A DNA stretch of 31,192 bases from a virus. Under the pieces are notes generated by a model, which ran no database searches, had not been told where the DNA came from, and saw only the letters and a program-made list of their open reading frames with translations. Below, in pieces: positions 651-31,192 of the stretch (position 1 is the first letter of the stretch; the number at the start of each line of letters is the position of its first letter). Location of the stretch: positions 1-31,192 of the IMG/VR virus record IMGVR_UViG_3300045922_000190; one strand, given 5' to 3'. Made by a program: the position numbers and the translations under genes.

Positions 651-1112
651 TTATTTCCTGGCTAATTCGTTCAAAAGATATTCCTGCGCTTTTAAAGAAC
701 ATTCTTTTTTAATCATCACCCATTGCGTATACAGCCTAGCCAGCAAATCAGATGAATCAACAACCACGGCAAAAGCATTAGTTTTTATTTTTCTAGTTAA
801 AAAATAAATCTGGGACGCTGAAACAGTCGATAACTTTCCTTTTGCTTTTAATTCTATAAATAAAGCATGACCATTCTTGTCGTTCCCAACCAGATCTGAA
901 AATCCTTGCTCAGCCTGGCCCGATAAATAAACCCCAGCAGCTCTACTGTAGACAGCCTTGGACTCAATGACAGACAAATCAAATCCTAGAATTTTAGATA
1001 AAGCTAAAACCTCTTTTTCAACTTGCTTTTCAGGCCTAGAGTTTTTTGATTTCTTTTTTTTTACACCACTGGTTTTTTTTGAATATTTCATCAAAGCATC
1101 AAATGCGCTCAT
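651..1112 (-). CDS. VRR-NUC / Holliday-junction-resolvase-like nuclease
   Basis: A 153-aa protein with a PD-(D/E)xK nuclease signature of the VRR-NUC type. A lysine-rich N-terminus (residues 11-30) is followed by GFSDLVG with D73, FIELKAKG with E87 and K89, and Q101 in the motif after it. Such phage enzymes cut branched DNA or nick DNA during replication, recombination or packaging. I chose ATG at 1112 over the upstream frame because AAAGG lies 8 nt before it; it then overlaps the amidase stop by 14 nt. It is the last gene of the long minus-strand unit. Substrate (junction or flap) cannot be told from sequence. Confidence 0.75.
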   Translation of the reverse strand: MSAFDALMKYSKKTSGVKKKKSKNSRPEKQVEKEVLALSKILGFDLSVIESKAVYSRAAGVYLSGQAEQGFSDLVGNDKNGHALFIELKAKGKLSTVSASQIYFLTRKIKTNAFAVVVDSSDLLARLYTQWVMIKKECSLKAQEYLLNELARK

Positions 1113-1659
1113 TGTGTAATGCCTTTCGGTCAAATAAGTCAGCATAAAATCTTCGCCAATTAAAATACTGGCCTGGATCGCTTTTTCTACCTGGCGCTAT
1201 GTTTTCATGGCCCAAAATGCACTGCGGATGTATTTCTGGGAATGAAATCATTATCTGCCTACAAAGACTAATAAGGCTTGTGTATTGACTTTCGGTGTAG
1301 TCGATAATGTTACCATCACCAACTAGTTCAATGCCAATTGCCCACCTGTTCCAATCACGAACTATACGCCTTAACTTAGCGTTATAGTGCTCTGACACCC
1401 CAGCATGAAATGATTCATACAAAACAGGATCAACTATTTTAGAAAGCTCACCAAACCTTCCGATCTGGTAATGCGCAGAAACAAAAATATCGTCATCTTT
1501 TGACAACCATCGAACTACATTTGTGTGGAATTTCCGCCATAAAGATTCATTTGATAAATCTTTTTTTAGCTCATCACTGATTCCAGTATGGTGAATAATT
1601 ATCCCAGTCCATTCATTTTCACGCCGTATTCTTTTGTCCTTTGGATTTATGTAGCTCAC
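1099..1659 (-). CDS. Endolysin: N-acetylmuramoyl-L-alanine amidase (Amidase_2)
   Basis: A 186-aa single-domain zinc amidase of the AmpD/T7-lysozyme fold. IIIHHTG near residues 20-26 supplies the first zinc histidine (H23), SAHYQIG at 61-67 the substrate loop, and GHENIAPGRKSDPG at 150-163 the other ligands (H151, D161) with K159. It should cut the bond between N-acetylmuramic acid and L-alanine in peptidoglycan at lysis. No signal peptide or separate wall-binding domain is seen, so it likely depends on a holin. ATG at 1659 overlaps the previous stop as ATGA, showing translational coupling. The holin-like genes are about 4 kb away, with tail genes between. Confidence 0.9.
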   Translation of the reverse strand: MSYINPKDKRIRRENEWTGIIIHHTGISDELKKDLSNESLWRKFHTNVVRWLSKDDDIFVSAHYQIGRFGELSKIVDPVLYESFHAGVSEHYNAKLRRIVRDWNRWAIGIELVGDGNIIDYTESQYTSLISLCRQIMISFPEIHPQCILGHENIAPGRKSDPGQYFNWRRFYADLFDRKALHNERI

Positions 1660-3022: not shown

Positions 3023-5284
3023 TTAACTCATGCGATAAGGACCAAGATTATCATCAAAATCATTAACCCCATCCGACATATACCCATATATAACAGTAGC
3101 ATTTTTAAAATTAGCCTGATTATCGTATAGTGACAATTCAACAATATAGCCAGGCTGCGGAGTAAATGTAAAAGGATTGTCTACCGTTAAAATATTACCA
3201 GATATAGACTGCAATATAGCTTCGCCTACAAATACAAAATCAGTAGACCTAACCCTGATCGTAGCTCCAATTAAAGACTGCCATTTTTTAAATTCATCAG
3301 TACCAAACTGATCGGTATTAAAACTAGCTTGTATTTCAAAACTAGATTCATCAATCCCAGCCTTAACAATGCTAGAAGGACCGATTAAAGCAAATCGTGA
3401 ACTTAAATCGAAGTTAGTGTCAACAATGTCAAACGTACAAACCCCAGTTTTAATATTAAATGTTTTGTTAGATATTTCAAAAATCCTAGCATCACCAGAC
3501 CTTGTAGCAGTTTTAATGTCTGAGATTTTTAATTCCGACAAATTTACTAGTATTTTATCGCCAACCTCTAAATCAAAACCAAAAGCAAAGTTAGTTTTCA
3601 CGCCTTTAATTGTTTCAGCACCATATTTGTATTTAGAAAGCCGTCTAGGCGCAGCAACACCTGTAATTGTTGACGCTGACAAAGATGATCTAAGCCCAAG
3701 TGATTCGATAATAAGAGGCCTGTTCCCAACAGGTATTCTTGAAATAGACGCCCCGTCTAAAGACACATTACCAGATAAAAACCTGTCATCTAAAATACTA
3801 AAATCATATTTGTATATGATTGAATTGTAAAAATTCTGGTTAATACTTCTGGTCAAAACCAATTCACTAGCATTTAAACAGTTATTTGAATTCAATTCCT
3901 TAATATTTGCACCAGGGATTGGTCCAATATGGTAACCAATTGAGCTTTGAGCTTTTCGTGGAATACTAAATGCAGAAACTGGATTTAACAGTTGCTCAGA
4001 AATAAATTCTAGTCCTGATTTTATCTCCTCTGTTAATTCAAACCTCATGCTTGCGCTTGTTAGGTAACGCCTTTTAACAAATAAATGTTCTGCGATGTCT
4101 ATTTCATCATTTAACATCGCAAAACCAGCACCAGGACCCCATGTGTCGTATTGTGATCTAAATGACACCTCAGCAGATCCACCGGATTCAGCAGTCAATG
4201 TTTCGTCAATTTCAAGTAGCGTTATATTGTCAATTGTCCTGATTAATAAAATTTCTTTTAACGAAAAATCATTAGAACTAGAGTTTGTGACAGTAACAAA
4301 ATCGCCAATTTGTATATTTGCTTCATTGATAACAGAAGAATCAATTGCAATAGTGTTTGGGAAAGTCTGCAATATATTTGCAATTGTGTGATCGACAAAA
4401 CTTAATGGCGTAATGTTTGAAAGATAAAACCCATCAACCCCAGATACCATCATTTTTAAAACTAGATCAATGACATTGCCTTCTAAAACATAAATACTCT
4501 CAACAGTGTCACCTTCATTATGATTTGCAATAGTAGACCCTAGTTGTGCTCTTGTGCAGCTAGTAAAGCTAGATCCTGTTAACCCTTCATATCTAATGAT
4601 TTCATCGTTTACCCTCACATACAGCTTTAAAGAGTCATCAATTAACCCATTTGGACCAGTGTACGGCGCCAGAAATGTTGATGTGTCATCAACTGGGAGC
4701 GTAACAGTTGCAGGGTTATTATTTACGGCTGCTGTAAGCTCAGTTTCACCACGCAGAAAAATTGCAGCCCTTTTTTTAGTGTCACTTGATGAAATGCTGA
4801 TGCTTACATTTCCTGCTTTTGCTTGCACTTCATCAATTAGGCCGCGAAATATTGTGATGTAATCCTCTTTAAATCGCAAATCCTTAAATCCAAGCCAAAC
4901 TTTAGCGCGTCTACCCAAAATATCAGGGACAGTAAACCCAGGACTTATCAGCTCTGTCGCAAAAAATTCTTTATCAATTAAGTTGATCGTTAACTTACCT
5001 GTAGAATTATCTGTCCCTTTATCTATGTTTAATGTCTGTCTAATTTCTGAAAATGTACCTTTATCAAAAGAAATCAAATCGGTAGCTGTTTCTAGCACTA
5101 ATGGGAATCCATACAATAAACCATCTTGACCGTAAACCAAGTTGTCATCGCCATATCTTGGCGTATATCTAACCTCACCTGCGCTAAAAAATGTCCCAGC
5201 ACCATCAATCTCTAAAACTATTTGCGGCGATATTTGCCCAGATTGGGAATACCTTAATGCATCAACTGTTAAACTAAAGGCCAT
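3023..5284 (-). CDS. Tail hub / tail-tip protein
   Basis: The largest tail-tip gene, 753 aa. The N-terminal part reads as a beta-rich hub: VDALRYSQSG, then RYTPRYGDDNLVYG, then a disc-like region with KGTDNSTGKLTINLIDKE. The middle carries a central-hub-like part, and the C-terminus is rich in beta-turns. Position (after tape measure, distal proteins and lysis genes, before a fibre) and size fit the hub that caps the tail tube and carries fibres. No peptidase or lysozyme motif is visible. ATG 5284 overlaps the lipoprotein stop by 11 nt. Calling it hub rests on order and size more than on a motif. Confidence 0.6.
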   Translation of the reverse strand: MAFSLTVDALRYSQSGQISPQIVLEIDGAGTFFSAGEVRYTPRYGDDNLVYGQDGLLYGFPLVLETATDLISFDKGTFSEIRQTLNIDKGTDNSTGKLTINLIDKEFFATELISPGFTVPDILGRRAKVWLGFKDLRFKEDYITIFRGLIDEVQAKAGNVSISISSSDTKKRAAIFLRGETELTAAVNNNPATVTLPVDDTSTFLAPYTGPNGLIDDSLKLYVRVNDEIIRYEGLTGSSFTSCTRAQLGSTIANHNEGDTVESIYVLEGNVIDLVLKMMVSGVDGFYLSNITPLSFVDHTIANILQTFPNTIAIDSSVINEANIQIGDFVTVTNSSSNDFSLKEILLIRTIDNITLLEIDETLTAESGGSAEVSFRSQYDTWGPGAGFAMLNDEIDIAEHLFVKRRYLTSASMRFELTEEIKSGLEFISEQLLNPVSAFSIPRKAQSSIGYHIGPIPGANIKELNSNNCLNASELVLTRSINQNFYNSIIYKYDFSILDDRFLSGNVSLDGASISRIPVGNRPLIIESLGLRSSLSASTITGVAAPRRLSKYKYGAETIKGVKTNFAFGFDLEVGDKILVNLSELKISDIKTATRSGDARIFEISNKTFNIKTGVCTFDIVDTNFDLSSRFALIGPSSIVKAGIDESSFEIQASFNTDQFGTDEFKKWQSLIGATIRVRSTDFVFVGEAILQSISGNILTVDNPFTFTPQPGYIVELSLYDNQANFKNATVIYGYMSDGVNDFDDNLGPYRMS

Positions 5285-5474
5285 TTTTCTTACCCCGACA
5301 CTCTGATAGTTCTATTGCCAAGTCTTCAAGGTCTTTTTGTGTTATACAAGCCATTGGACTTTGCCCTGGTACTGGCTCATAAAACTCAATCGTCTTTGGC
5401 AGGAACTCTCTTTTTAGCGGTGCGGCTGAACACCCGAGCAAGCCGCTTGCCATCGCGCTCACGAAAAGCAGCAT
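5274..5474 (-). CDS. Small lipoprotein, putative outer-membrane spanin (Rz1-like)
   Basis: A 66-aa protein with a signal peptide and lipobox: MLLFVSAMASGLLGC, with the modified cysteine at residue 15, then a proline-containing mature part. ATG at 5474 is preceded by AGGA at seven-base spacing, whereas a GTG at 5510 would add a charged leader. The gene starts inside the frame of the upstream gene (5386-5598) and runs past its end, the classic Rz/Rz1 nested layout. O-spanins sit in the outer membrane and, with an inner-membrane partner, fuse the two membranes at lysis, which implies a Gram-negative host. The mature part is less proline-rich than typical Rz1, so the call is by layout and lipobox. 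Confidence 0.65.
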   Translation of the reverse strand: MLLFVSAMASGLLGCSAAPLKREFLPKTIEFYEPVPGQSPMACITQKDLEDLAIELSECRGKKNGL

Positions 5475-5598
5475 TGATTTCCTGTAAGTCTTTTTTAAGT
5501 TCCTGCGCACGTTTATGATCCTCGTAGCTTTGTATGATTTGCCTTACCAGCTCTAGTATGTCCGGTAAGGCTTTAATAAAAGCCCAAATGGTTTTCAT
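5386..5598 (-). CDS. Lysis-cassette protein in inner-membrane-spanin position
   Basis: 70 aa. The N-terminus (IWAFIKALPDILELVRQII) is amphipathic to weakly hydrophobic, followed by a charged, probably helical stretch (EDHKRAQELKKDLQEI) and a basic tail. It lies directly upstream of, and overlaps, the lipoprotein gene in another frame, the position of an i-spanin (Rz). A convincing N-terminal membrane segment is missing, so it might instead act as a membrane-associated regulator. ATG 5598 overlaps the previous stop as ATGA. Confidence 0.55.
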   Translation of the reverse strand: MKTIWAFIKALPDILELVRQIIQSYEDHKRAQELKKDLQEINAAFRERDGKRLARVFSRTAKKRVPAKDD

Positions 5599-5774
5599 TT
5601 TGCTGTAGCTGGCAGCTCTTGTGCTTTTTCAGTAGCCGCACTGGGTGCAGTTGCTTCGTGGATGGCTTGCCGTAAGTCTGTGGACATGATCCCAAGACTT
5701 GTTAAAAGCATCACGATAAGTGCAATGATCTTTTTCTTATGGTTTTCCCATATTGTTTTTAGTGTCTCTTTCAT
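5595..5774 (-). CDS. Small single-span membrane protein, holin candidate
   Basis: A 59-aa protein beginning MKETLKTIWENHKKKIIALI. A positively charged N-terminus (HKKK) precedes one membrane segment, IIALIVMLLTSLGIM, at residues 16-30, and then a polar alanine-rich tail. It overlaps both neighbours by four bases (ATGA), so it is translationally coupled within the lysis cassette. One membrane span with a short charged N-terminus fits small holins or antiholins, which release the endolysin through the inner membrane. There is no family-level motif; the role comes from size, topology and position. Confidence 0.65.
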   Translation of the reverse strand: MKETLKTIWENHKKKIIALIVMLLTSLGIMSTDLRQAIHEATAPSAATEKAQELPATAK

Positions 5775-6016
5775 TTCTCCCCCTTGGTTTGTTCTTCAGC
5801 TATTGCCCGTTTAGTTCCAATAATAAGTGCGATATTGTGGATGTCCCTTTGGACTGTCTTTACATCTTTAGCATTATTTTCTGTGATTACTTTTACCATC
5901 CTTTGTTCAGCCTTTAGCTCCGAGATCTGGTCCTTTAGCTTAATGTAAGAGGTAAGTATTGCCCCACCTACACCTAGGACCATCGAGATAATTTCTATTA
6001 TGTCTTTTGTTTCCAC
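5771..6016 (-). CDS. Holin-like membrane protein with coiled coil
   Basis: 81 aa. One membrane segment (residues 6-25, IIEIISMVLGVGGAILTSYI) is followed by a charged coiled-coil-like part (KDQISELKAEQRMVKVITEN) and a lysine/glutamate-rich tail. The order of membrane span then coil is the reverse of XhlA-type proteins. The frame opens with GTG at 6016. It is the first gene of a four-gene cassette of small membrane or lipid-anchored proteins, so holin or antiholin is the best guess. It follows the adhesin gene by 31 nt. Confidence 0.65.
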   Translation of the reverse strand: METKDIIEIISMVLGVGGAILTSYIKLKDQISELKAEQRMVKVITENNAKDVKTVQRDIHNIALIIGTKRAIAEEQTKGEK

Positions 6017-6047: not shown

Positions 6048-8063
6048 TCATAGGGGGCCTATGCAAGTTATGTCTACTGTAGCGTCTTGCGCTGTCGGGG
6101 TTCCTAAATCGAAATTTCGTATTCTCCATGCAGTAGCTGTTGGGTTTGTATTGAAGTTTGGCGAGCAGTTTAAATGGGCAACTCCTGCTTGTCTTGAAAT
6201 ACAAGTGCAAGTAGGTACGGCGCTAAAAACTCCAGAGGAAAAGTTAACTGTGTAGTCTCCAGTGGCTGAGCGAGATACTGAAGAGACTCCGCCCGATTGC
6301 CTGTAGATGGTGCAAGTGCTCGCAGTGCAGTTGTTACTGCCTTCAGTAGTACCGCCAAAGGTTGCCCATTCAATTCTAGCTTGCCCAGAGTATGTGCTAG
6401 AAACACTATTCGCAATCACAGGCATTGGTGTTTGTTGATCTATGTAACGAGCTGTGATTTTGACGTCGCGTTGGCCAGTGGCTGCGTCGGCGTCGGCTAA
6501 AATTTGGTTGTTGATTACTGTGGCACCAATTATTTGTTCATACATCAATCTAATTGTGTGTTTCGCTGCTGTAGGTATTTGAAATGTACCGCAGAGTGTA
6601 TGCGGCAAACTGCCTGTAACTCCGCTAACTTGAGAAAAGACCCTAGCACCACCTTCTTCTGCAATTGTTTGCGATCCGTTTGCCGTTCTAATAGATTGAA
6701 ACGTAGTGTTTACGTTCCCCGTCGTTGTAGAAATTGAATGTGAAAACTGATGACAAACTTCCACCAAACCAGCTCTAGGAAAGTTAGCAACAAAGCCTAG
6801 TTCTTCGTTACCAGTGGGGCAGGTGGTATTACCAACACTGTTATCGTTAGTCGATGAACAAGATATACCAGCAGGTGCAGAACCTTTAGCCGTGTTGACT
6901 GTCATTGTTAAATTGGCATTGTTAGGAGCGATATAAGATGATTGGTTTGATGTACCTAATGACACATTCGCACCCGAAATATTTAAATCAAGTTTCCAAT
7001 TAGCAAGATCAGGTGTAACCGCTACCTCTGAGGCAAGTGGGTAGCGGTAAATCTGAAATGTCGTTCGGAAGTTACCGTCAGAGTTACTTATAGTAACCGC
7101 ATTTGTGTTTGCAGAACCAAAAATCTCAAAACTTCTATTTCCTGCGGTTGTATAAACAAAATTACCAGACAAACTTAATGCTTTTCGGCCTGATGTCCCA
7201 GAATTTCCACTTTGCGCTCTTCCGCTAGTAGTTGTTCCATCGCTTATTGTGTAGGCTACATCGTTTGCTGTGCCCCCACCACCCATCGCAAAGTTAAAAA
7301 TGACCTGATAATTTCCTGGTGGAAGGTTGTTGACCGTAACCCTTGGTAAATCGACATCTGTGGTCTGAATAACTCCAGGACCAGGATTAAATTCTACAGT
7401 TGGCCCTGGGCAAGCGGCTGTTGTTGGAAAAGCGCCAAGAGCGGTGTTAGTTCTGCTCCAATTGCACGAAGATGTTGTCGCAAAAAAAGCACTGCCAATA
7501 AAAGTTGCCTGGCTCACGTTACTAATGTTCGTAGCCAACCCCACATAGCAATCATCAATAGCGACTAGTGGCTCATTAGATGCTACCGAAAGAAGCCTTA
7601 CGCTGATATTTCCACTAGAAGGGAAAATGAAGTTAAGCGCGCTTAACGCAGGAGTTGAACTAGATATAACGTCCGTACTCGCCAGCACATTAGTCCCATC
7701 AAAAACCTCAAACTTATGAGTCGCCGTCCCCGATGGCGTTAAAATACGGCACGAAGCATACCCATTAGCCCCGTATAATCCGTTCGGTATTGCCACAGCA
7801 GTTGAAGTAAGTGTCTGAGACGCCGCCGACGCGTCCCATGTCGCAGAAACTCGGCCCACTAACAAGTTAGATCCACTGGTAACAGTAGAAAATGAACCAC
7901 CACTAGCCGTCCAGCGTGCCCTGCCATTTTCAAAACCAGGGTTATCTAAAAGGTTTTTGTAAAATAGCTCCTGCTTTGTTACGGACGTGACCTGCGCCAC
8001 TGCCATAAGCGGCTGAAACATAATCGCCAAAACTAAACTAAATGTAACACCTAAATTCTTCAT
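6048..8063 (-). CDS. Secreted-type adhesin / receptor-binding protein with Sec signal peptide
   Basis: A 671-aa protein encoded among tail genes. Start is ATG 8063 (ATGA overlap with the previous stop; GGAGG ten bases upstream). Residues 1-23 form a clean Sec signal: MKN, a hydrophobic core, and an AVAQ cleavage site. Next comes a carbohydrate-binding-like domain (NLLDNPGFENGRARW, about 35-180), then a second beta domain, a third Thr/Ser-rich part, and near the C-terminus GDYTVNFSSGVFSAVP, a motif common in phage tail-fibre knobs. About fifteen cysteines are present, unusual for cytoplasmically assembled tail proteins but fitting a protein oxidised after export. DNA is richer in G+C than the flanking genes. 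It could be a virion receptor binder, or a protein placed on the host surface. Confidence 0.7.
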   Translation of the reverse strand: MKNLGVTFSLVLAIMFQPLMAVAQVTSVTKQELFYKNLLDNPGFENGRARWTASGGSFSTVTSGSNLLVGRVSATWDASAASQTLTSTAVAIPNGLYGANGYASCRILTPSGTATHKFEVFDGTNVLASTDVISSSTPALSALNFIFPSSGNISVRLLSVASNEPLVAIDDCYVGLATNISNVSQATFIGSAFFATTSSCNWSRTNTALGAFPTTAACPGPTVEFNPGPGVIQTTDVDLPRVTVNNLPPGNYQVIFNFAMGGGGTANDVAYTISDGTTTSGRAQSGNSGTSGRKALSLSGNFVYTTAGNRSFEIFGSANTNAVTISNSDGNFRTTFQIYRYPLASEVAVTPDLANWKLDLNISGANVSLGTSNQSSYIAPNNANLTMTVNTAKGSAPAGISCSSTNDNSVGNTTCPTGNEELGFVANFPRAGLVEVCHQFSHSISTTTGNVNTTFQSIRTANGSQTIAEEGGARVFSQVSGVTGSLPHTLCGTFQIPTAAKHTIRLMYEQIIGATVINNQILADADAATGQRDVKITARYIDQQTPMPVIANSVSSTYSGQARIEWATFGGTTEGSNNCTASTCTIYRQSGGVSSVSRSATGDYTVNFSSGVFSAVPTCTCISRQAGVAHLNCSPNFNTNPTATAWRIRNFDLGTPTAQDATVDITCIGPL

Positions 8064-8875
8064 GTTATCAAGACCTCCCAAGCCGTTTTAAATATAAACA
8101 CAGATCCAGCAGCAGTGTCAGTGCCGCGGCTAAGCCTTACGCGAAGATTATCGCCAGGCGATACAGCAACCCCATTTATCTCCCCAGACGAATCTGTCAA
8201 ATCTAGCTCAACTTCTGTAATAACTCTGGCTGTTCCAGGCACCGTAATTGCCGTGTTAGTTGAGGCTTGCTGGTTCGTAGTGCTACTGCTTTGATCGACC
8301 CCAATGCGTAAAAGAGTAGATAACGTCTCAAACAAAACATCCCCAGATGTTTCATCCGTTTTAAATATTCCCTTCATTCTAATTTGCACACCTGGTAAAT
8401 AAGAATCAGGAACCCTTATGTCACAGAATAAATTCTGCGTAAGACCTGGCTCGTATTCATAAACAGCGGCGTTATTTTCTTCCCGTTCAATAGGTGCTGC
8501 GCTAAACGACTGCCACAAAACAGGGATTCCTCCACCAGCACCACCAGACGATGGTATGTTTACCCAATTAGATCCGTCCCAAGTAAGCACATCACCAATT
8601 GAAGGTGTACCAATGTTAACACTGTCTAGATCGTTTAGCTCATTTGCACCAACTAGCTTTTCAACCCCAGATGAATCAAGGAAGTAAATTCTTGAATCAC
8701 CTTTTGAGTAAAGTTTAGTTTTGCCAGCAGCAGGATTAGATGGCGTTGATGAAATGTGGTTTAGTAGAAGTTCTTTTTCTAAGTTAACAACACCTGCGGC
8801 ACTTGTGTCTTGTGTTCTAGAAACAAAAGCAGCATTTGTAACAGCAGCTGAAACAGCCTGACCATTCTGGACCAT
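8060..8875 (-). CDS. Tail fibre / upper-fibre protein
   Basis: 271 aa. The N-terminal third is Ala/Ser-rich, then LNDLDSVNIGTPSIGDVLTW with DGSNWVNIP, a repeat-type motif common in phage and bacterial fibre proteins (GDVLxWDGSxW), then a glycine hinge (SSGGAGGG) and a beta-rich C-terminal domain. This looks like a shaft joined by a hinge to a globular head. ATG 8875 follows the previous gene by two bases. It lies between the distal tail protein and the adhesin, so it may link the adhesin to the tail. Confidence 0.6.
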   Translation of the reverse strand: MVQNGQAVSAAVTNAAFVSRTQDTSAAGVVNLEKELLLNHISSTPSNPAAGKTKLYSKGDSRIYFLDSSGVEKLVGANELNDLDSVNIGTPSIGDVLTWDGSNWVNIPSSGGAGGGIPVLWQSFSAAPIEREENNAAVYEYEPGLTQNLFCDIRVPDSYLPGVQIRMKGIFKTDETSGDVLFETLSTLLRIGVDQSSSTTNQQASTNTAITVPGTARVITEVELDLTDSSGEINGVAVSPGDNLRVRLSRGTDTAAGSVFIFKTAWEVLIT

Positions 8876-19574: not shown

Positions 19575-19974
19575 ATATTATTTTTATATCCCTTTCACCA
19601 TCATTGGCGGCATTGGCCATCTTTTCGCCAAGAACTTTACCAGCGGAGCTAATCATACTGAATTCACCTTCTAATATTTTTATTGCTAATTTAGTTCTGT
19701 CTGGATGATCTGGGTTATCTAACACCTGCTGAATAATTGAAATAGCTTTTGGCCTTAGCTCTAAGATCGTATTGATGTCGATTTGTTTTTTTAGAAACAT
19801 CTCCTCAGCTACATATCTTTTTCGATTTGCTATTTCTAATTGGACTTTTTCATCCTTTAGCATCGACATCACTTGTAACCTGCCAAACATTTTCACCAGG
19901 TCACCAGTGTGCATTTTTAAATTCACTATACAGTGAATAAAATCCTGCTCTATTTCAGATAGCTGTGAGCTCAT
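19546..19974 (-). CDS. terS: Terminase small subunit
   Basis: 142 aa, directly upstream of the large subunit. It is helical: SEIEQDFIHCIVNLKMHTGD and QLEIANRKRYVAEEMFLKKQ, then ELRPKAISIIQQVLDN and PDRTKLAIKILEGE, as in small terminases that bind DNA through a helical domain and oligomerise. ATG 19974 overlaps the Dam stop (19971). No certain helix-turn-helix is visible; the call relies on position and pattern. Confidence 0.75.
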   Translation of the reverse strand: MSSQLSEIEQDFIHCIVNLKMHTGDLVKMFGRLQVMSMLKDEKVQLEIANRKRYVAEEMFLKKQIDINTILELRPKAISIIQQVLDNPDHPDRTKLAIKILEGEFSMISSAGKVLGEKMANAANDGERDIKIIYATKDSESS

Positions 19975-21026
19975 AGTCCTAAAGCCTTAACAGCAATTTT
20001 ATTGCCGTAAACTTTTTCGGTTTTTACTAAATATTCCTTTTCTGAAGAAAAAAGTGATCTTTTTTGTGTTTTAAACACAAGTTTAAATCTTTCATCGTCA
20101 ATATTATATTCGCTTATGAATACTGGATTTTTTTGAGCATCTGCCCAATCAAAAAATGCCTTGTGATTAAACTCGCCGCCATAATCTGCTGTTCCTTTGT
20201 ATGGAATGTCGCAATAGATAACTGAATTTTCTTTTATCGGAACATTTTCATAGCTTGCTGTGTAAAAATTTATCCGCTCTAGTTGCTCTAGCTGCTCTAG
20301 CCGCTGTAGCCGCTGTAGCCGCTGTAGCCGCTGTAGCCGCTCTAGCTGCTCTAGCCGCTGTAGCTGCTCTAGCCGCTGTAGCCGCTCTAGCTGCTCTAGC
20401 TGCTGTAGCCGCTGTAGTTGCTGTAGACACCTAAAATTATCAGCGGTTTGATTTGCTTTTACTATTTTTAAATTTGATTCATTTAAAAAAGGCCAAAGAA
20501 ATTCTGGTACCTTTGTTTTTCTGTAGAATTCAATTTTATTTCTTAAAAACAATCTTTTTTGATATATAGTGTAGCCATCATTAAACTTTTTTAATCCTAA
20601 AGTCTTTTCAGCAAGTTCATCAAAGTCATTAAACACAATAGCATTATGCATTGATCTTTTGTATGGCTCTATTTCTTTTGAAAATAGATATGTTTTTCCA
20701 TCATTTCCAAATGACCAAATAATTTTAATCATTGGATCAGTGTCTAAATTAGCAAAAAACTCATTCCTAGAAACAAATGACGGATTAAAAACATCGTAAT
20801 TATATTTACCAGCCATAGCATTTTTTATCAGGTCGCAGATCCCAGGCCTTATTTCGTTAAAATGAAAATACTTAAAGTGATTTCTGCGCCTTAAAAGCAT
20901 TGCATGAGTGACTGAAAACCCACCACCGAAAAGATCGTAGAAATTGTCTGCCTTTGGGAAAATGCGAATAATTTCTTCGCATATACCACCCTTACTGCCC
21001 ATGTAAGGTATTCCATACTCAGCCAT
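19971..21026 (-). CDS. Dam-type N6-adenine DNA methyltransferase with internal L-x-Q/R repeats
   Basis: 351 aa, D12 class. The SAM site is near the N-terminus: YGIPYMGSKGG (4-14) and YDLFGGGFSVTH (30-41). The catalytic tetrapeptide is CDIPYKGT (272-279), where DPPY is usual, so isoleucine replaces the first proline. Between the two lies residues 201-251, a run of 17 three-residue units L-(Q/E)-(Q/R), absent from the core family and probably a looped coiled helix. It overlaps the ParB-like gene by eight bases and the small terminase by four. Methylation may mark phage DNA or protect it from restriction. Confidence 0.85.
   Translation of the reverse strand: MAEYGIPYMGSKGGICEEIIRIFPKADNFYDLFGGGFSVTHAMLLRRRNHFKYFHFNEIRPGICDLIKNAMAGKYNYDVFNPSFVSRNEFFANLDTDPMIKIIWSFGNDGKTYLFSKEIEPYKRSMHNAIVFNDFDELAEKTLGLKKFNDGYTIYQKRLFLRNKIEFYRKTKVPEFLWPFLNESNLKIVKANQTADNFRCLQQLQRLQQLEQLERLQRLEQLQRLEQLERLQRLQRLQRLQRLEQLEQLERINFYTASYENVPIKENSVIYCDIPYKGTADYGGEFNHKAFFDWADAQKNPVFISEYNIDDERFKLVFKTQKRSLFSSEKEYLVKTEKVYGNKIAVKALGL
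20274..20426 (-). repeat. 17 x 9-nt tandem repeat inside the methyltransferase gene
   Basis: Seventeen units of nine bases; on the coding strand the unit is CTA-(C/G)AG-C(A/G)G. Apart from one CAA, units differ almost only at two positions: the second codon (CAG or GAG) and the third (CAG or CGG), giving LQQ, LQR, LEQ and LER in a mosaic. A period of three codons keeps any unit gain or loss in frame. Confidence 0.95.
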
Positions 21027-22055: not shown

Positions 22056-22241
22056 ATGGATGTGAATGAAAAGCTATTACTTATTGAAAATGAAGTTGAA
22101 GACTTAAAAGTTGACATTGAAAACCTTGAGGAGCGCATTGGTGACCTTAGGGATATGCTTTTGGTTTTGCTTAACCAGCTGGAAGAATCGGCATCACACC
22201 TAGCAAGACTAACGAGAGCAATGGACAAAAAAAGCCTTTAA
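22056..22241 (+). CDS. Plus-strand coiled-coil protein
   Basis: 61 aa with a near-continuous heptad pattern (ENEVEDLKVDIENLEERIGD, then LRDMLLVLLNQLEESASHLA). It is read on the plus strand, in a stretch where all neighbours are on the minus strand. The opposite-strand frame (22046-22228) is a serine-rich artefact. It starts 49 bases before the region upstream of the 22006 gene and ends overlapping by four bases the convergent YkgJ-type gene. AAAG lies five bases before ATG, a weak site. Without this gene the minus unit would have a 231-base gap here. Function unknown. Confidence 0.6.
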   Translation: MDVNEKLLLIENEVEDLKVDIENLEERIGDLRDMLLVLLNQLEESASHLARLTRAMDKKSL

Positions 22242-22813
22242 AGTCTCTCAATTTCACGCCACACAGCGTCTGGAATTGTGGTTTTCTCATCAACTGACGC
22301 CATTACGTTAGCAAGCATCACTATTTCTTGCGATGCAACAATCTTTATTTTCGATTTTCTACCTGGTGTGCAGTTTTCTTTTGGTGATGAAACGAACCAA
22401 CTTCTGCAAAACGATGGTCGCGCTTCGTAAACTCCACAGGAGCCATCTGGTTGATTGAAAACGCACAGAGCATCATTACCTAGGCTTTTTTGATAACTCG
22501 TCAAATTTTGGCGATTAGAGCGCCTAAACGCGATTTGTTTTTTAAGCCTGTTTTTATCTATTTCTATGTTTTTAAATTTAGCATACTGCATCATTAGTTT
22601 AACTTCTTGTGTCGTGCATTCCACTGGTTCGTAGCAGCAGAAATTGCATCCTTTTTGGCAGGTGATTTTTTTGGTCTCGTGTTCTTGCATCAATTTACAG
22701 GCCGCATCGATTGATTTATGCATCGTTACAACTGCAAGGTTGTGGCCGACCATTTCTTTGAGCTTTTTGTAGCTGGTCTTTATGGATTGAAATTCTTGGC
22801 TAAATTTATTCAT
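22238..22813 (-). CDS. YkgJ-type cysteine-cluster (metal-binding) protein
   Basis: About 191 aa. Residues about 52-70 contain CQKGCNFCCYEPVECT, and a second cluster follows (CGVYEARPSFCRSW, then NCTPG), which together match the YkgJ-type zinc/iron-binding family, C-x3-C-x2-CC...C...RPxxCR. ATG 22813 is chosen, with AAAGG eight bases upstream; GTG 22816 adds one residue. The family is common in bacteria, and its biochemical role is not firmly known. In this phage it lies between the origin-like region and the packaging block. Confidence 0.8.
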   Translation of the reverse strand: MNKFSQEFQSIKTSYKKLKEMVGHNLAVVTMHKSIDAACKLMQEHETKKITCQKGCNFCCYEPVECTTQEVKLMMQYAKFKNIEIDKNRLKKQIAFRRSNRQNLTSYQKSLGNDALCVFNQPDGSCGVYEARPSFCRSWFVSSPKENCTPGRKSKIKIVASQEIVMLANVMASVDEKTTIPDAVWREIERL

Positions 22814-22951
22814 CACAAAAGCCTTTGTTAATTGTGGTCAAATTACGAGTTTTTTGCCCTTTTTCAACGCATTTCGTTAGAAAAACCCGCTCCCCCAATT
22901 TCTGCGCAAAAAATGATGATTTTTTGCCATTTTTTACCTTTTTTCAAAAAT

Positions 22952-27800: not shown

Positions 27801-28346
27801 ATGAATGACACTGATAAAAACAGCTTATTTAGGAAAATAGTTCGCAACATTTTGTCAAAAGACGAGTGTGAACGGTTGATTAAAAGACATAAGTCTGAGG
27901 CTGGGGAAATGGCCAAATTTTGGAGTGGTGAAAAGCGAATTGAAGTTAAATCAACTAGAGATTCTAGACTTGTTTGGGTTGGGCATGATTTGGAGTCTGA
28001 AATTTCAAGCCGAGTCATGAGCGAAATGCCTGGCCATGAAAATTTATTCTTTAAAGACAAAATTCAACTAACTCATTACGCAGTTGGTGGACATTATGTT
28101 TGGCACCCTGATTATGTTCAAAAACATAATCCAAGAAAATATTCTGCTGCGATATTATTATCAGATAGATCTGAATTTGCAGGTGGTGAATTTGAGTTTC
28201 GAGACATTGATTTTAAGTGTGACTTAAACCAAGGTGACGCAATTATTTTTGACGCAAGGCTTTGGCATCGCGTAACCCCAGTAACCTCTGGGGAAAGGTA
28301 TAGTGCTGTGCTTTGGGCACTTGATGTAAAGGATAAACCGGAATGA
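27801..28346 (+). CDS. 2-oxoglutarate/Fe(II)-dependent oxygenase
   Basis: 181 aa. The iron triad is visible: H102 and D104 in VWHPDY, and H156 in WHRVTPV; R166 (GERYSAVLW) should bind 2-oxoglutarate. YSAAILLSDRSEFAGGEFEF (114-133) is the usual jelly-roll core, as in prolyl-hydroxylase/PiuC-like phage enzymes. It hydroxylates an unknown substrate: a protein, a nucleotide base or a small molecule. First gene of the plus unit; ATG 27801 has AAAGG 11 bases upstream. The following gene overlaps by four bases. Confidence 0.85.
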   Translation: MNDTDKNSLFRKIVRNILSKDECERLIKRHKSEAGEMAKFWSGEKRIEVKSTRDSRLVWVGHDLESEISSRVMSEMPGHENLFFKDKIQLTHYAVGGHYVWHPDYVQKHNPRKYSAAILLSDRSEFAGGEFEFRDIDFKCDLNQGDAIIFDARLWHRVTPVTSGERYSAVLWALDVKDKPE

Positions 28347-29310: not shown

Positions 29311-29652
29311 ATGAAGTACAGAAAAAAGCCAGTGGTTATTGAGGCACACCAATGGTTCAAAAATGGCGACCACCCAGAAGACAGGTGCGAGATAATTGTT
29401 GTAAACGATGGCGAATCATTTTTGTCTGAAGGTAAAATAGTTCGATATTACAGACATCCGAGAATTGACGGCGAAGTAGTATGCACTGAATGTAACTACA
29501 CCATGCATAATCACGGATGGATTGACACACTAGAAGGCGGCCACATTGTCTGCGTTGGCGATTTTATTATTACTGGAGTTAAGGGCGAAGTTTACCCATG
29601 TAAGCCAGACATTTTTGAAATGACTTATGAGGCAGTTTGTGAAACCAAATGA
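29311..29652 (+). CDS. MKYRKKPVVIEA-type phage protein
   Basis: 113 aa from ATG 29311, after GAGGAAAGAGAA; the ATG is well placed while earlier starts add a charged leader. The opening (MKYRKKPVVIEAHQWF) and the end (GVKGEVYPCKPDIFEMTYEA) are typical of a widespread phage family of unknown function, sometimes annotated with a PGDYG domain. Cysteines in CTECNY may bind metal. The next gene starts just past the stop. Confidence 0.75.
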   Translation: MKYRKKPVVIEAHQWFKNGDHPEDRCEIIVVNDGESFLSEGKIVRYYRHPRIDGEVVCTECNYTMHNHGWIDTLEGGHIVCVGDFIITGVKGEVYPCKPDIFEMTYEAVCETK

Positions 29653-29680
29653 AGAACGCGCCAAGGCGGCTAAGGAAAAC

Positions 29681-30415
29681 ATGAAAGCATTCCACAATGA
29701 CGAAAAAGTTAAACAAAAATATCTAAACCGAATATTGGCTCACCAAGCAGCCGATGAAATTATCAAAGGCAAGTACTGGGAGAACGGTAAAGGGTGTGCC
29801 GTGGGATGTACAATTCACAGCAATAAACATTCAGCATACGAGACCGAACTGGGCGTGCCAGAGTGGTTAGCTATATTAGAGGATAGAATTTTTGAAGGCT
29901 TACCAAATAATGAGGCCAAAGTCTTTCCAGCACTATTTCTAGAATCAATAAACATTGGCGCAGACTTAAATAAAATTAAGATACCGATGCTTATATTTAT
30001 TGTCGAGTCTGCAAGAGCAAGTACGAAAAACAAAAGGGCTTTGGCAGCTATTGACGGCGTTTTAGTTGAACTTCGTAAAGATGTTTTAGATTTAGATGCG
30101 CTAAAAAAAGCTCGTGATGCTGCTGATGCTGCTGCTGCTTCTTATTCTGCTGCTCGTTCTGCTGCTGCTGTTGCTGCTGCTTATTCTGCTGCTTCTGCTG
30201 CTCGTTCTGCTGCTGCTGTTGCTGCTTATTCTGCTGCTTATGCTGCTCGTTCTGCTGCTGCTGTTTATGCTGCTGCTCCTTATGCTGCTTATGCTGCTGA
30301 TGCTGCCGCTGCTGCTGCTTATTCTGCTGCTTATTCTGCTGCTGCTGCTGCTGCTAAAAAAAAATACAGCAAATTTGCCAATAAACTTTTAGAACTAATT
30401 AGGGGTTGCAAATGA
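29681..30415 (+). CDS. Phage protein with long alanine-rich repeat tail
   Basis: About 244 aa. ATG 29681 with AAGGA five bases upstream is preferred to ATG 29627, which lies inside the previous gene. The first 110 residues carry a conserved-looking domain (KYWENGKGCAVGCTIHSNKH, ELGVPEWLAILEDRIFEGLP) that recurs in many phages. From 30110 to 30355 the sequence is mostly Ala with Tyr, Ser, Arg, Val and Asp (AAYSAARSAAAV types), then a short basic end. The repeat may be a long helix or disordered linker. Function unknown. Confidence 0.8.
   Translation: MKAFHNDEKVKQKYLNRILAHQAADEIIKGKYWENGKGCAVGCTIHSNKHSAYETELGVPEWLAILEDRIFEGLPNNEAKVFPALFLESINIGADLNKIKIPMLIFIVESARASTKNKRALAAIDGVLVELRKDVLDLDALKKARDAADAAAASYSAARSAAAVAAAYSAASAARSAAAVAAYSAAYAARSAAAVYAAAPYAAYAADAAAAAAYSAAYSAAAAAAKKKYSKFANKLLELIRGCK
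30110..30355 (+). repeat. Low-complexity NNT-codon alanine repeat
   Basis: Eighty-two codons in which all but one (GCC near 30304) end in T. Most are GCT, with TAT, TCT, CGT, GTT, GAT and one CCT. Units such as GCTGCTTATTCT and GCTCGTTCTGCT recur. The pattern is a DNA-level expansion: all three frames stay open over it, and slippage by three bases preserves the frame. Confidence 0.95.
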
Positions 30416-30728: not shown

Positions 30729-31192
30729 ATGAAAACTGTAGTAATCAAAAAAAAATCTGATTTAGATGCTTTACCAGACAGTTTTGAAGAGTTCACGACA
30801 ATCGAAATCAGGTCGGAAAATTCAGACTGGCTTTATGTAAAAAAGGCCTGGGATAATTCCAGCGTTGAGGCCTGGGGCAATTCTAGGGTCGTCGCCTTGG
30901 GCAATTCCAGCGTCGTCGCCTTGGGCAATTCCAGCGTCCAGCTTTTTATTTCTGCTTACGCGATAGTGCTTTCATCAAAAGTTTTAATTAAAAAACTTAT
31001 GGACTACTCGACAGCAGTGTTTAAGGGATGCCCTGTCAATGTTGAGGAAAAATCAAACACTTCTTATGCTCGGGAAATCCCAAAAGAAATTGAGCCCTCA
31101 TTTGAAGAGTGGCTAAGGCGTGGCTACGTTTACGCTGACGGAATCTGCAAAAAGCTAAAGTCACAGAAAAAGATAGGTGAAATAGAGGTTTT
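30729..31192 (+). CDS. NSSV-repeat phage protein, N-terminal part (continues at 1)
   Basis: First 154 codons of a gene that crosses the window end and finishes at 413 (275 aa in all). It starts MKTVVIKKKSDLDALPDSFE at ATG 30729 with GGGA nearby. Residues 42-70 are 8-residue repeats (D/G-N-S-S/R-V-x-A-W/L) of the kind seen in the WGNSSVEA repeats of many phage proteins, probably a small beta-helix. A C-terminal domain follows across the junction. Such repeats may bind a surface or protein; the function is unknown. Confidence 0.85.
   Translation, partial: MKTVVIKKKSDLDALPDSFEEFTTIEIRSENSDWLYVKKAWDNSSVEAWGNSRVVALGNSSVVALGNSSVQLFISAYAIVLSSKVLIKKLMDYSTAVFKGCPVNVEEKSNTSYAREIPKEIEPSFEEWLRRGYVYADGICKKLKSQKKIGEIEV
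30852..30938 (+). repeat. 24-nt tandem repeats encoding NSSV octapeptides
   Basis: Three full units of 24 bases (30852, 30876, 30900) and a partial one at 30924, all in frame. The second and third differ at two bases only, while the first has diverged. The unit encodes GNSSVVAL. Near-identical neighbouring copies suggest recent duplication or gene conversion. Confidence 0.9.
31144..31192. repeat. Terminal direct repeat, right copy
   Basis: Exact copy of bases 1-49. It marks the same place on the circular map as the left copy. Confidence 0.9.

Follow-up and report, generated by a model that had tools for sequence, protein, structure and literature searches.

Tail fibres are normally cytoplasmic proteins, and the closest described counterparts of the gene reported here sit on the surface of a bacterial predator. 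Mosaic adhesive trimer (MAT) fibres of Bdellovibrio bacteriovorus carry a signal peptide, are located on the predator surface and resemble phage fibres in appearance (PMC10769870). The tip of one of them, Bd2734 of HD100 (PDB entry 8OKW, residues 691-843), has a divergent TNF fold with lectin-like, sugar-size pockets, and deletion of Bd2734 slightly reduces prey entry (PMC10769870). The predator has phages of its own, among them phi1422 (NC_019525), a cultured phage of B. bacteriovorus that is lytic (PMC3391216).

How does the present locus compare? We analysed a 31,192-base IMG/VR virus contig, referred to in its entirety as the window, that carries a terminase, a P22-like coat gene and tail genes and probably derives from a siphovirus-like phage. 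A preliminary description had proposed that a tail-locus gene at 6048-8063, next to the lysis genes, encodes an adhesin with a cleavable Sec signal and about fifteen cysteines. A genuine ORF occupies these coordinates on the minus strand (its ATG at 8063-8061, its stop codon ending at 6048), and the tail locus was confirmed by the terminase, the coat gene, a weak tape-measure match and fibre families. A good ribosome-binding site precedes the gene, whose ATG overlaps the TGA with which the upstream fibre gene ends; this places the adhesin in the tail operon, and the coupling suggests late expression. The relevant features are as follows.

6048..8063, minus strand: signal-bearing adhesin gene, 671 aa, 14 Cys
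7992..8063, minus strand: predicted Sec/SPase I signal peptide, residues 1-24, MKNLGVTFSLVLAIMFQPLMAVAQ (sequence and rule-based test)
7518..7958, minus strand: N-terminal beta-rich domain, residues 36-182, weakly carbohydrate-binding-module-like
7035..7520, minus strand: TNF-like domain, residues 182-343, related to the Bd2734 MAT fibre tip
6396..7037, minus strand: family hallmark domain, residues 343-556, predicted TNF/C1q-like jelly roll
6048..6395, minus strand: variable C-terminal domain, residues 557-671
8074..8079, minus strand: Shine-Dalgarno sequence GGGAGG, 10 nt before the adhesin ATG
8060..8875, minus strand: tail-fibre-like gene, cytosolic, without signal, directly upstream (ATGA overlap)
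5771..6016, minus strand: holin-like ORF (weak) with one predicted TM segment, downstream of the adhesin
5274..5598, minus strand: putative spanin-like pair of overlapping small ORFs, 5274-5510 being a likely lipoprotein
1099..1659, minus strand: amidase_2 endolysin, the only firmly identified lysis gene

That lysis genes adjoin the adhesin is thus likely, with the single-TM ORF and the spanin-like pair less firm than the amidase; Peptidase S74 is absent from the window. Several other features of the window deserve mention in their own right: a D12-type DNA methyltransferase (19971-21026) with an inserted 9/27-base tandem repeat at 20274-20426 (17 copies of 9 bp, encoding LQRLEQLERLQ-like stretches); a small protein with 10 Cys and a Pfam match to CxxCxxCC, a putative zinc- or iron-chelating domain (22238-22816); a 2OG-Fe(II) oxygenase gene on the strand opposite to the tail operon (27801-28346); a protein whose long Ala/Ser/Tyr-rich tail is encoded by a degenerate 42-bp repeat (29627-30415, repeat at 30118-30355); and, close to the contig end, a 24-bp tandem repeat of 3.9 copies without an assigned ORF (30846-30938).

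Six more viral contigs, siphovirus-, podovirus- or myovirus-like, encode homologues of the adhesin that are 26-52% identical to it. L002 and L003 came from scans of viral contigs, L019 from a peptide motif, and L031, L034 and L039 from the motif C-x2-GNEE-x-G-x13-C, which in viral contigs also returned many unrelated frames besides true members. L002 is podovirus-like, and the gene order of L003 largely follows that of the window. Baseplate genes of gpJ/gpI type occur in L019 and L034, and in L039 the adhesin is preceded by a baseplate gene and a short-fibre head gene. In several loci, lysis genes follow. Pfam and PHROG searches returned nothing above chance for any of the seven members, including no match to a virion-attachment head domain. 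Matches to ribosomal S11 and HoxA13 were regarded as chance. When a phage collection was searched by tblastn, the window protein, L034 and L039 found no match, and the hits of L031 were confined to stretches of fibre shaft in Pelagibacter phages and others. Plasmids yielded no adhesin homologue. Scans of bacterial genomes for host homologues, one with the Bd2734 tip as query, were empty as well, but carry little weight because even B. bacteriovorus itself was not recovered. Directly downstream of the adhesin, all three myovirus-like members have a second signal- or lipoprotein-bearing, Cys-containing ORF (L034 1-317, truncated and signal-like in appearance; L039 2918-3628; L019 159-1172). Homology between those of L034 and L039 is weak (E=0.003), and these ORFs could possibly be exported partners of the adhesin.

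At its N-terminus (MKNLGVTFSLVLAIMFQPLMAVAQ followed by VTS), the window adhesin combines a basic n-region, a 10-residue window of mean hydropathy 2.55 and the sequence AVA-Q, and cleavage would be expected near residue 23/24. Signals were scored with a simple home-made rule, relaxed once by allowing proline in the c-region; the remaining ORFs of these loci that reach 100 aa served for comparison. This rule called a signal in 7/7 family members and 3/87 other ORFs (Fisher P = 1e-8), two of these three lying directly downstream of an adhesin (in L019 and L039). With proline forbidden in the c-region, six of the seven members remained positive and the window protein was missed (P = 7e-7). Signal prediction, suggested earlier as a check, came out in favour of the proposed Sec signal: the signal-like start is present throughout the family by this simple rule, and its removal is predicted. 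By the same kind of prediction, the signal-bearing layout extends beyond the adhesin family, since a podovirus fibre (UOF83102 of Podoviridae sp., MW202898) has a signal after a T7-like fibre head. This long fibre follows a short fibre-head gene, shares its shaft with L031 and, as far as seen, lacks the family's hallmark domain. Its gene (L042 3782-6535) is annotated as a caprin-2 domain protein, and the annotated start may lie 11 codons too early, as the signal peptide begins at Met12.

The adhesin is indeed Cys-rich, with 14 cysteines rather than about fifteen. Against a Cys content of 0.37% in the other structural and lysis ORFs, 14 in 671 aa is more than expected (binomial P = 3e-7); few cysteines and no signal-like start are seen in the window's remaining tail proteins. 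Four cysteines of the hallmark domain (402, 415, 437 and 491) are kept in 7/7 members, and ten are kept among the three closest, including Cys105 and Cys172 of the N-terminal domain. Such conservation is as expected of a protein in an oxidising compartment.

What does the protein look like? A PDB profile search with the TNF-like region of five members gave 8OKW as the only significant match (E=1.8e-14), which covers residues 186-342 of the window protein and aligns its Cys200 and Cys218 to two cysteines of 8OKW; the window protein alone matched the same entry with E=1.7e-5. When L019 was added to the profile the match was lost, probably because the corresponding L019 domain is non-homologous. 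A predicted monomer model of residues 182-556 (pLDDT 77.6) likewise had 8OKW as top Foldseek hit (TM 0.82 by target), superposing with Z 19.2 over 146 residues at 2.1 A, and the next entry reached Z 11.9; a model built from three sequences (pLDDT 47) was set aside. The hallmark domain had no sequence match in the PDB, and its modelled jelly roll resembles BxpB (Z 10.8) and a cyanophage short-tail-fibre domain (Z 9.8). For the N-terminal domain only weak matches were found (8xmz, E=0.029; 2zey, 0.71), and the C-terminal domain ends in a motif with hydrophobic-x-C-x-G in 6/7 members. Thus, a signal-like start retained in all seven members despite their divergence, conserved paired cysteines and TNF/C1q-like lectin-type folds together give good support to the idea of an exported adhesin.

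Like Bd2734, the window adhesin has a predicted signal peptide, a beta-rich mosaic architecture and a TNF-like adhesive domain (about 25% identity). Unlike Bd2734, it is phage-encoded within a tail operon, it is shorter (671 versus 843 aa), and its TNF-like domain is internal rather than a C-terminal tip. MAT fibres have a conserved beta-rich domain of ~130 aa directly after the signal; as the comparison covered MAT tips and the adhesin is phage-encoded, it is not filed as a MAT. The fold of residues 186-342 is also that of TNF/C1q-like lectins such as the BC2L-C N-domain, PLTL and BclA (Z about 11), but these are cellular or spore proteins and gave no sequence match at the search threshold. 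With virion tail fibres the adhesin shares a gene position inside the tail-fibre region, yet it differs from such cytoplasmic proteins in its signal-like start.

A further parallel comes from phi1422, whose gp68 starts like a signal peptide, contains 8 Cys and lies directly after gpJ, gpI and the fibre gene gp67 and before a TM ORF. It thus occupies the same gene slot as the window adhesin, and both are signal-bearing and Cys-containing. Sequence similarity of gp68 to the adhesin family was undetectable, and homology was not supported (hhalign probability 2%). The excerpted text of the phi1422 genome paper does not discuss gp68 (PMC3391216). The slot comprises 13 ORFs in the three sister phages, whose hosts are Vibrio, Aeromonas and Pectobacterium, and not one of them bears a signal; small as the sample is, this links exported proteins of the fibre slot to a phage of Bdellovibrio. 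At its lysis end, phi1422 encodes another signal-bearing, fibre-like small protein, gp75 (L043 15299-15811). Given the Bd2734 match and the signal-bearing slot gene of phi1422, the host of the window phage is likely a Bdellovibrio-like predator. Prey binding, one of the uses floated in the preliminary description, thereby gained unexpected support, as one domain has a Bdellovibrio prey-interaction fibre tip for its sole relative of solved structure and a known Bdellovibrio phage has a signal-bearing, fibre-like gene in the same slot, with the host itself a likely assignment. Superinfection exclusion, biofilm and lysis-stage release, also named there, are further candidate uses.

Together, these observations lead us to a tentative but plausible reading, namely a late, Sec-exported, disulfide-stabilised lectin-like adhesin that acts outside the cytoplasm and is probably encoded by a phage preying on a Bdellovibrio-like predator. 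The protein would be translated late, together with the tail-fibre genes, cross the inner membrane via Sec, lose its signal peptide and form its disulfides in the periplasm. It may fold into a probably trimeric, fibre-like protein in which a carbohydrate-binding-like domain is followed by two jelly rolls of TNF/C1q-like type and by an exchangeable tip. Either on the infected cell's surface or released by lysis, it would bind glycans as Bdellovibrio MAT fibres do, and its likeliest use would be to make the infected predator, or its lysate, adhere to other cells, be they prey or predators. Against this reading stand the empty bacterial genome scans, the lack of detectable sequence similarity between gp68 and the family, and the poor fit of late expression with aiding prey entry by an infected predator; nor is a route across the outer membrane apparent.

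Alternatively, the adhesin could be a virion fibre that matures in the periplasm, acquires its disulfides there and joins the tail only when lysis brings it together with virions. Its place in the tail-fibre slot, beside gpJ/gpI-type baseplate and short fibre genes in the myovirus-like members, the fibre-shaft sequence after the signal in some relatives (L031) and the lysis genes that follow in several loci would all suit such a route. However, no virion-attachment domain is recognisable behind the signal of the window protein, the gene immediately upstream already encodes a complete cytosolic fibre, and a literature search found no precedent, leaving this possibility rather unlikely. The hydrophobic start might instead serve a tail protein that stays in the cytoplasm, as a structural element or a membrane tether, given that the signal prediction comes from a simple rule; retention of the signal layout in seven divergent starts, the conserved cysteines and the contrast with the other tail proteins of the window make this very improbable.

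Other uses would keep the protein outside the cell but give it a different task. An exported adhesin could cover the phage receptor on the infected cell or its debris, sparing the progeny. The C-terminal part of the upstream fibre gene is homologous to the gene preceding the adhesin in L002, in phages otherwise of different type, so that fibre tip and adhesin may travel together. Yet in L003 the adhesin is accompanied by a different upstream fibre, and known exclusion proteins are often early, whereas tail-operon coupling suggests late expression here; we regard receptor masking or superinfection exclusion as improbable. Doubtful to a greater degree still is lysogenic conversion, in which a prophage gene would supply its bacterium with a new surface fibre. 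The L031 record contains an integrase and MAT fibres are themselves phage-fibre-like (PMC10769870), but no integrase was found in the window or in four other records searched, which are possibly fragments, and phi1422 is lytic (PMC3391216).

Returning to the exported, MAT-like adhesin, what might it mean for predators and their phages? The variant described here combines a phage adhesin, a predicted export signal and a MAT-type tip domain. Conserved export signals on tail-locus adhesins in three phage types indicate deliberate placement of an adhesin beyond the cytoplasm by some phages. It is conceivable, if not the most probable outcome, that exported, MAT-like adhesins are a property of phages infecting Bdellovibrio-like predators, where they would act like the predators' prey-recognition fibres and alter the prey attachment of infected predators or their lysates, with domains exchanged with the MAT repertoire. 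The MAT link would offer a concrete source of, or partner for, predator prey-recognition fibres, and phi1422 together with B. bacteriovorus provides a laboratory system in which the exported adhesin can be put to the test.
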